Origin: Ignavibacteriota bacterium
GTDB lineage: Bacteria; Bacteroidota; Ignavibacteria; Kapaibacteriales; UBA2268
DNA: 48,548 nucleotides
Reading direction: 5' to 3'
Assembly (NCBI GenBank): GCA_024636855.1
Contig: JAGXGG010000100.1
Span: 1 to 48,548, forward strand
The notes under the pieces are model-generated. The model worked only from the letters and a program-made list of their open reading frames with translations. It did not search any database and was not told the origin of the DNA. The position numbers and the translations under genes were made by a program. This document shows, piece after piece, positions 32,120 to 33,539 of this stretch (position 1 is the first letter of the stretch; each line of letters opens with the position of its first letter).

Positions 32120-32144
32120 AGAGCATCCTTATGAAAGATGCTCT
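32120..32144 (-). terminator. Hairpin in the rpsB-tsf gap (partial terminator or attenuator)
   Basis: An 8-base-pair stem AGAGCATC / GATGCTCT with a nine-base loop, followed on the minus strand by a U-run. It lies inside a gene order that is otherwise read as one operon, so partial termination, as known for rpsB-tsf in E. coli, is likely. Confidence 0.75.
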
Positions 32145-32159
32145 AGTTTTGTTTATTTC

Positions 32160-33044
32160 TTATTCAGCTGAGTCTTGTTTTACTTCAGCTTCGCCAGAGA
32201 CCTCTGCGACTTCCGATTTCTTTTTAGGTTTATCTGAAGCAACATCTTTCTTTCTTTCTCTAAGCTTTCTCTTAACTTTAGTTTGATCTTCACCCGAATC
32301 TTCATTCTCTTTGTTAATTCTTTCTGATTCAGCTTCCATTTCTGCACGTTTAGTTTTGGCAACAGTATAGCCTTCTACTAATGCGTCAGTGATAACTCCT
32401 AAAATCAATTCGATTGTATTTCTAGAATCATCATTCGCTGGAATAGGGAAATCAACTTCATGTGGGTTAGAGTTTGTATCTACGATTGCTATAACAGGAA
32501 TATTCAAGTTATGAGCTTCTTTGATAGCTAAGTGTTCTTTTTTAGTATCTACTATGAAAATTGCACCCGGTAAACGAGTCATATTTTCTATACCACCGAA
32601 GATTCTTCTTAGTTTCTCTCTTTCTCTATCGAAAAGTAATCTTTCTTTCTTAGTAATCTTTTCGTAAGTACCATCAATTGACATTTTGTCGATTGAAGTT
32701 AATCTTTTGATAGATTTTCTAATAGTAGCAAAGTTAGTTAACATACCACCTAACCATCTTTCAGAAACATAGTTTACATCAGCTTTCTTAGCAGCTTCTT
32801 GAAGTAAATCTTTTGCTTGGCTTTTAGTACCAACAAAAAGTATATTTCTACCACCAAGAGCTATCTCGTAAGCAGCATCTCTAGCAAGAGTAAGTAATAT
32901 TTGGGTTTTACGAAGATCGATAATGTGGATCCCATTTCTTTCATTGAAGATAAAATCTTCCATGGCAGGATTCCAACGTCTGGTCAAGTGACCAAAATGA
33001 GCACCAGCTTTAAGTAGCTGCTCTATTTCTACATAGTGTTTCAT
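32160..33044 (-). CDS. rpsB: 30S ribosomal protein S2 with charged C-terminal extension
   Basis: 294 residues, longer than E. coli S2 (241). Family motifs: LLKAGAHFGHLTRRWNPAM (about 9-27), IHIIDLRKT, NILFVGTKSQAKDL, RWLGGMLTNF, and FIVDTKKEHLAIKEA. The core ends near residue 240. The remaining residues are a low-complexity Lys/Glu-rich tail (KVKRKLRERKKDV, then an acidic end), absent in short S2 proteins. The ribosome site is AAGGA. A structured leader lies just upstream. Confidence 0.97.
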   Translation of the reverse strand: MKHYVEIEQLLKAGAHFGHLTRRWNPAMEDFIFNERNGIHIIDLRKTQILLTLARDAAYEIALGGRNILFVGTKSQAKDLLQEAAKKADVNYVSERWLGGMLTNFATIRKSIKRLTSIDKMSIDGTYEKITKKERLLFDREREKLRRIFGGIENMTRLPGAIFIVDTKKEHLAIKEAHNLNIPVIAIVDTNSNPHEVDFPIPANDDSRNTIELILGVITDALVEGYTVAKTKRAEMEAESERINKENEDSGEDQTKVKRKLRERKKDVASDKPKKKSEVAEVSGEAEVKQDSAE

Positions 33045-33060
33045 GTATTTCCTTATATTT

Positions 33061-33132
33061 TGTGTGTTTTAACTACTGCTAGAAAGATCTTGGTACATAT
33101 TATATATATGCAACACACAGTACTTTCCAGCA
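33061..33132 (-). promoter_or_regulatory. Structured rpsB leader (interleaved stems, possible pseudoknot or switch)
   Basis: On the minus-strand RNA, stem A is UGCUGGAAAG (33132-33123) with CUUUCUAGCA (33086-33077): ten pairs including one G-U. Stem B is UGUGUGUU (33119-33112) with AACACACA (33068-33061): eight pairs. Their order is A-B-A'-B', so the stems can only coexist as a pseudoknot or compete as alternatives. B' ends about 10 bases before the rpsB ribosome site. A small hairpin CAUAU/AUAUG lies between. This is a candidate S2 autoregulation site. A TATAAT in the same stretch is an alternative explanation (promoter). Confidence 0.5.
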
Positions 33133-33152
33133 TGATTGATAAATAATTCTTC

Positions 33153-33539
33153 TTAACGTTTCGAGAATTGGAATTTCTTTCTTGCTTTTTTGCGACCGTA
33201 TTTCTTACGTTCAACCATTCTAGAATCTCTAGTAAGCAAGTCCGCATCTTTCAACTGCTGTTTCAATTCAGGATCCATTTCGATAATGGCACGAGCTAAT
33301 CCAAGTTGGATAGCACCCGTTTGACCTGTCAATCCACCACCTTTTACATTGGCAACTATATTATACTGACCGTTTAGTGCAGTAACTACCAATGGTTTTA
33401 GGATTTTTTCTTTGTTACTTTGGAGGTCAATAAACTGATCAACATCTTTGTCATTTATAACAAACTCACCTTTACCAGGTGTGATTCTTACAGATGCAAC
33501 AGATGTCTTTCTTCGACCTGTTCCCCAAAATTGTTTCAT
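33153..33539 (-). CDS. rpsI: 30S ribosomal protein S9
   Basis: 128 residues, standard size. Starts with WGTGRRKTSVASVRI (residues 5-19); VKGGGLTGQTGAIQLGLARA is the core signature; the C-terminal tail is SRMVERKKYGRKKARKKF, ending FSKR, the conserved end that reaches the P-site tRNA. It is 18 bases after rplM, the universal rplM-rpsI order. The 3' end lies just before the rpsB leader, and stem A of that leader starts only about 20 bases after the stop. Confidence 0.97.
   Translation of the reverse strand: MKQFWGTGRRKTSVASVRITPGKGEFVINDKDVDQFIDLQSNKEKILKPLVVTALNGQYNIVANVKGGGLTGQTGAIQLGLARAIIEMDPELKQQLKDADLLTRDSRMVERKKYGRKKARKKFQFSKR

Follow-up and report, generated by a model that had tools for sequence, protein, structure and literature searches.

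The window analysed here, a stretch of 48,548 nucleotides from an Ignavibacteriota genome, contains a cluster which we take, having named the genes from their translations, to be rplM-rpsI-rpsB-tsf-pyrH-frr. Between rpsI and rpsB lies a gap of 108 nt (33045-33152, minus strand) in which two stems cross each other, their strands following one another along the minus strand in the order A-B-A'-B'. Loci upstream of rpsB or matched by our models carry L numbers, among which L001 is the window's own copy and L001-L004 represent four genomes of the window's genus. The features, all on the minus strand, are as follows.

33153-33539, minus strand: rpsI (ribosomal protein S9), the upstream gene
33123-33132, minus strand: P1 5' strand (stem A, UGCUGGAAAG), pairing with 33077-33086; P1a covaries in relatives
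33120-33123, minus strand: upper P1 5' strand GUAC, at a position corresponding to P1b of relatives
33112-33119, minus strand: pseudoknot 5' strand (stem B, UGUGUGUU), its pairing seen across relatives
33095-33111, minus strand: P3 hairpin GCAUAU ... AUAUGU with TATAAT inside, drawn by eye from the sequences of L001-L004
33093-33096, minus strand: upper P1 3' strand GUAC, overlapping P3 by two bases
33087-33092, minus strand: six-base 3' bulge CAAGAU, at about the site of the relatives' NNNGAN strand
33077-33086, minus strand: P1 3' strand (stem A', CUUUCUAGCA), ten pairs with A, one of them G-U
33069-33076, minus strand: linker GUAGUUAA, equivalent to the relatives' GAAGUNUAA element
33061-33068, minus strand: pseudoknot 3' strand (stem B', AACACACA), eight pairs with B
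33051-33054, minus strand: Shine-Dalgarno-like AAGG, 6 nt after B'
32160-33044, minus strand: rpsB (ribosomal protein S2), the presumed regulated gene

The original prediction, made from the window alone, had a ten-pair stem with one G-U crossing an eight-pair stem ahead of rpsB, and both stems were found where it had placed them; its distance of about 10 bases from the second stem to the ribosome site was too long, as 6 nt separate B' from AAGG. Two interleaved stems this good arose in 3 of 4000 dinucleotide-preserving shuffles of the gap, while a stem as long as A alone was reached by 180 of the 4000 and one as long as B alone by 541. The plain folding energy of the gap, computed with a program that does not score pseudoknots, is unremarkable (z -1.23). 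The G of the upper P1 5' strand GUAC also takes part in the last pair of stem A, and the upper P1 3' strand and P3 share two bases, so both cannot be complete together. By eye, the shape of P3 is kept in the window's genus through a compensatory change from CAUAU/AUAUG to CAUAC/GUAUG, and its sequence is not conserved. TATAAT, named in the original prediction as a possible transcription start that would take stem A out of the message, was considered as a conserved promoter and rejected because it is missing at that place from the genus's other three genomes (L002, L003 and L004).

Downstream of rpsB, in the interval before tsf, there is a terminator-like hairpin with 11 pairs and a T run (window 32120-32144, minus strand), and inspection by eye shows one in L002, L003 and L005 as well. 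Expression of tsf may therefore be uncoupled from that of rpsB, or attenuated relative to it.

The leader in related genomes

The S2 protein of the window was searched over 40 related genomes, 38 of which yielded rpsB, and 30 upstream regions were compared. The nearest S2 proteins belong to metagenome genomes (named Ignavibacteriae or 'bacterium') at 98, 95 and 90% identity, and that of 'Candidatus Kapaibacterium' comes next at 75%. One genome of the window's genus also holds a second rpsB-like gene (G003:C60:2301-3173, 47% identity), possibly through contamination. The gaps have a common layout that runs from CAUG through P1a (about 7 pairs), GGA, P1b (about 7 pairs), UGUGUGGC and the variable hairpin P3 to the 3' side of P1b, NNNGAA, the 3' side of P1a, GAAGUNUAACACA and the ribosome site. 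It was parsed automatically in 29 of the 30 gaps, some of them in poor register (for example L010, L013 and L029). In L013, L024 and L026 a strong hairpin, seen by eye, stands right after rpsI and before the leader, followed in L013 by a T run, which suggests that rpsB has a separate promoter there.

Covariation was measured in an alignment of 14 sequences into which both P1 helices and the pseudoknot were written and from which the window's genus was excluded. Over P1 and the pseudoknot, 92.8% of 265 cells are paired and 12 of 19 pairs show double changes, a count reached by 2 of 500 shuffles; the percentage paired and the covariation score were each reached by 0 of 500, and sliding the partner by 1-3 columns brought pairing down to 36-56%. 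A larger alignment, A4 (98 sequences), was drawn from 100 loci without L018, L023, L067, L069, L116, L133, L037-L046 and duplicates; L002 and L004 were searched for it and lay above the E cut. Over the 14 pairs of P1 in A4, 95.6% of cells are paired and the covariation is 0.882, against 0.285 when shuffled and at most 0.147 when slid, and pairs with a double change are no more numerous than in shuffled alignments (13 versus 12.2, with 211 of 500 shuffles reaching the count). As A4 was fitted to the structure, the 14-sequence test is the cleaner of the two. For a further alignment, A5, 41 sources were searched, of which it contains 36; L166, L174 and L175 were removed before counting, which left 33 sequences counted and, together with A4, 131 aligned sequences.

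Kink-turns of the Kt-7 type are marked by tandem G-A pairs and a three-base bulge. Between the two P1 helices, 122 of the 131 aligned sequences (91 of 98 and 31 of 33) have an internal loop with NGA on its 5' side and NNNGAN on its 3' side, which we take to be a kink-turn signature with P1b next to the three-base bulge. This signature is absent from the window (L001) and from L003 and, by eye, from L002 and L004. The window's genus pairs straight through at the loop and keeps the 3'-side bulge CAAGAU, whose NGA partner is missing in the window. In the nearest outgroup, L005, which also lacks the signature, the kink-turn-like loop is altered, and in the window's genus it is gone, with the pseudoknot retained at 8 pairs; since its genus is without a signature common to most relatives, the window's copy is atypical.

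The pseudoknot of the relatives follows a pairing rule in which the junction reads NNNGU and then G, the tail reads AACNNN, and the three N positions should be complementary. When this register is fixed, the two constant pairs (GU/AC) are imposed by the search pattern, and only the three variable pairs are informative. The test scored 121 of the 131 rows and left out 10, an earlier version on 98 rows having left out 6. All three variable pairs form in 61 rows, compared with a permutation mean of 16.9 (maximum 29); two form in 24 rows, one in 28 and none in 8, so that 60 of the 121 rows are without all three in the tested register. These permutations treat related rows as independent, an effect that is lessened and not removed when distinct combinations are counted: among 55 such combinations, 85 of 165 cells pair against a mean of 58.4 (permutation p 0.0001), and 9 are fully paired (permutation p 0.0004), namely UGUGU/ACACA, CCUGU/ACAGG, GGUGU/ACACC, GGAGU/ACUCC, UUUGU/ACAAA, GAAGU/ACUUC, UGAGU/ACUCA, AGUGU/ACACU and CGGGU/ACCCG. 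Pseudoknot helices sought in a free register were dropped as false helices, some of which lay inside the coding start. In the window the pseudoknot is 8 pairs long, and its strands are invariant among L001-L004 and therefore uninformative within the genus.

Compensatory changes, whose absence from the rpsI-rpsB gaps of relatives was to have spoken against the predicted stems, are thus abundant for both of them. Because the two stems are conserved together, a pseudoknot is likelier than mutually exclusive folds, and the crossing stems appear to form an evolutionarily conserved pseudoknot. The original prediction had left the choice between these two readings of the topology undecided; the co-conservation favours the pseudoknot and makes exclusive folds less likely, and kinetic switching could still take place.

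The position of the pseudoknot relative to the ribosome site varies. Two or more of the three variable pseudoknot pairs form in 85 rows. Among these, a Shine-Dalgarno-like word has its GG inside the 3' core of the pseudoknot in 31, 0-1 nt beyond the core in 9 rows, 2-12 nt beyond it in 27 and farther away than 12 nt in 5; such a word was not found in 13 of the 85. In the leaders with ACAGG, the tail ACAGGAG is both the pseudoknot strand and the Shine-Dalgarno sequence. From the end of the motif to the rpsB start there are 2-125 nt (median 13, 131 sequences). In seven of the 131 (L113, L121, L123, L124, L127, L129 and L193), where the tail reads AACAAAAGCC or similar, 60-125 nt intervene, and capture of the Shine-Dalgarno sequence in this way is therefore not possible.

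Distribution and gene context

Two covariance models were used, R1 built from the 14 sequences without the window's genus and R2 from the 98 sequences. R1 recovers the window at 20.1 bits (E 0.005 in 160 kb) and finds 28 of the 30 loci at E < 0.01, 14 of them outside its training set, missing L018 and L023. R2 scores the window at 33.8 bits directly, L001 being part of its training set. The window's own genome was not reported by whole-genome searches with either model, so an empty genome row does not mean absence and all tallies are lower bounds; likewise G223, which the R2 whole-genome search did not report, gave a 34.6-bit match by direct search (L150).

With R1, matches were found in at least 68 of 392 genomes of the phylum and at least 71 of 149 of the class. 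In 12 of the 68 and 3 of the 71 the only matches are weak ones away from rpsB, so that 56 and 68 genomes remain. Wherever R1 scored at least 24.8 bits, rpsB lies downstream (43 of 43 and 41 of 41 fetched loci), and three more strong R1 loci (L020, L026 and L029) came through rpsB itself; at the weaker places (E 0.013-0.096), rpsB is downstream in 0 of 18. At E 0.003, R2 matched at least 87 of the 392 genomes of the phylum, including eight from other classes, and among the further R2 loci checked all 35 strong ones are upstream of rpsB, as against none of the 3 below 24 bits. In the relatives' loci checked, rpsI is upstream of the leader.

The same model reaches more distant loci, with 29.2 bits at L037, 27.0 bits at L042 and a weak 18.1 bits at L040. 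In the phylum of L042, a locus labelled Calditrichaeota, 3 of 39 genomes match R2, two of them strongly and one weakly and not beside rpsB; in that of L040, a locus labelled Zixiibacteriota, 3 of 60 match, one strongly and two weakly and not beside rpsB. Among ten loci from other classes of the window's phylum, which were chosen for weak R1 matches elsewhere and are not a random sample, six match R2 at 29-40 bits (L150-L154 and L157) and L155, L156, L158 and L161 have no credible match. According to one report, the ribosomes of Bacteroidia do not recognise Shine-Dalgarno sequences (PMC9976891). Closer to the window, ten f2-family genomes of its order, among those listed, have no R2 match. The f2 locus L018 reaches only 10.7 bits with R2 and L023 does not match, although each of them allows a diverged form of the leader to be drawn by eye.

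The original prediction had called for a covariance model and a search with it; R1, with no member of the window's genus in its training set, recovers the window, and all strong matches are upstream of rpsB. The view that the leader is a conserved structured RNA is very well supported. This branch of leaders is found through the window's class and is scattered in related groups.

Comparison with known ribosomal protein leaders

In E. coli, uS2 represses rpsB-tsf through the structure of the leader, and efficient repression requires S1; the operator does not include the ribosome site, and the mechanism by which S2 acts is described as unclear (PMC10931766). The rpsB motif of Meyer et al. 2009 consists of a long P1, an optional P2, a variable P3 and a pseudoknot between J2-3 and a 3' extension after P1; the pseudoknot has five pairs in most groups, and P2 is absent in several (PMC2704228). 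That motif is described for most Alpha- and Gammaproteobacteria, for a small number of Beta-, Delta- and Epsilonproteobacteria, for Cyanobacteria and for some Firmicutes (PMC2704228). Compared by description, the element here shares with it the position at rpsB, P1, a variable P3 and the pseudoknot, and is without P2 (PMC2704228). It differs in that Bacteroidetes appear in the consulted text only as a search database and the NGA/NNNGAN loop within P1 is not mentioned there (PMC2704228). The original prediction raised the prospect of a fold different from those of known S2 leaders, an idea that is only partly right; the topology is that of this published motif, as far as its description in the consulted text goes (PMC2704228).

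The E. coli rpsB leader itself is represented in Rfam by t44 RNA (RF00127), which has the same gene and position as the element here. By eye, the E. coli loop GGGGU-GCC (GGGGUGCC) and tail AUAACCCC obey the NNNGU-G / AACNNN rule of the present leaders, an agreement that speaks for common descent. In E. coli the P1 loop has 4 nt on its 5' side and 1 nt on its 3' side, the reverse of the asymmetry of the loop here. With RF00127 the window gave no match at the gathering score and none at E 5 in 32900-33300, and there were no matches at E 10 in the 18 relatives' loci tested (of 30) or in 3 genomes of the genus; the E. coli leader, as positive control, scored 83.5 bits. Rfam searches of the window and of these 18 of the 30 loci returned nothing relevant. 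R1 and R2, for their part, do not match the E. coli leader, so the case for a relationship to the proteobacterial motif is made by topology, by gene context and by short elements common to both.

A search of the literature that did not extend to the survey of Fu et al. 2013, which reportedly describes some E. coli leaders as widespread, turned up no S2 leader reported for Bacteroidota, and a prior report is possible. Leaders of ribosomal proteins are usually narrow in distribution (PMC4647458, PMC7247131). Eckert and Weinberg (2020) list an L13 leader for Bacteroidia, which comes from a Bacteroidetes lineage and from the same cluster, rplM and rpsI plus rpsB (PMC7247131). As described in the text consulted, it is assigned to L13, with rplM as the first regulated gene, whereas the element here stands between rpsI and rpsB (PMC7247131). 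The table of 20 new motifs in that work names no S2 leader (PMC7247131).

Proposed function of the leader

We consider, with a probability of roughly 0.8, that the element is an S2 (uS2) autoregulatory leader of rpsB and a diverged branch of the known S2 leader. The structured rpsB leader put forward at the outset is conserved, with S2 autoregulation as its best explanation; we infer S2 to be the ligand that binds it and repression of translation initiation to be the effect. The long hairpin P1 and the pseudoknot of its loop (UGUGU type) with the mRNA just 3' of it (ACACA type) would form together, and S2 present beyond its sites on the 30S subunit would bind and stabilise the knotted form. 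With the 3' strand of the pseudoknot on, beside or shortly before the Shine-Dalgarno sequence in most relatives that have one, ribosome entry at rpsB would be hindered. For the majority of members, though not for every one, hindrance at the ribosome site is probably the simplest mechanism. Against this explanation, the window's copy is divergent, at 20 bits with a model that lacks its kin, and its P1 is without the loop of the 122 sequences; and against a general capture of the Shine-Dalgarno sequence, B' stops 6 nt short of the ribosome site in the window, and the E. coli operator leaves the ribosome site out (PMC10931766).

A real leader that responds to something other than S2, such as S1, S9, EF-Ts or an L7Ae-type kink-turn binding protein, seems unlikely to us. 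With rpsI upstream in the loci checked, S9 could come from the same transcript; the kink-turn signature in the loop of 122 of 131 sequences would suit an L7Ae-type protein, and S2 of E. coli needs S1 to repress well (PMC10931766). Yet in E. coli it is S2 that is established as regulating the leader, and the topology published for that leader is the same (PMC10931766, PMC2704228), and the strong matches are all upstream of rpsB, even where a hairpin separates rpsI from the leader (L013, L024 and L026). Moreover, the window's genus does without the kink-turn signature and still keeps the leader.

We give still less credence to A and B being mutually exclusive folds that act as a switch. The stems are interleaved, and a program restricted to nested folds forms either A (-22.4 kcal/mol when forced) or B (-19.0 kcal/mol when forced), but on its own A gives the better fold, so B would seldom prevail. 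No base of B or B' belongs to A or A', and exclusion is thus not forced by overlap; both helices are maintained together, in a fixed order, across divergent sequences, and rpsB motifs with this layout have been published as pseudoknots (PMC2704228). That the repeats reflect chance or a promoter feature of an AT-rich gap is very improbable, for although the folding energy is ordinary for the composition and TATAAT lies between the stems, that word is absent at this place from L002, L003 and L004, stems as good as these are rare in shuffles, and covariation and rpsB context extend through the class.

Returning to an S2 leader, the loop within P1 offers a possible route to the knotted form in most relatives. 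A kink in the middle of P1 would bend its lower half back, folding the lower 7 pairs along the upper 7 or so, so that the 3' tail would reach the loop and a short tail would close the pseudoknot. We propose that, P1a and P1b being similar in length, the tail and the end of P1a would come to lie beside the loop once P1 is kinked. In many f12 and f17 members the pseudoknot would contain the Shine-Dalgarno sequence itself. The odds seem to us about even that these leaders make up a class of S2 leaders with a predicted kink-turn, unrecorded in the Rfam release searched, which spans the window's class, reaches related phyla and, unlike that of E. coli, has its Shine-Dalgarno sequence captured directly by the pseudoknot.

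If the main reading is correct, S2 autoregulation extends to a large and little-studied part of the tree, for which the alignment and models given here find the leader. Leaders in which the pseudoknot strand is the Shine-Dalgarno sequence would offer a simple and testable mechanism of repression. If the kink-turn is also real, the window's genus would be a case in nature where the kink has been lost and the knot kept, and the presence of the loop in most relatives, together with its loss in one genus, would be a natural experiment on what the loop contributes.
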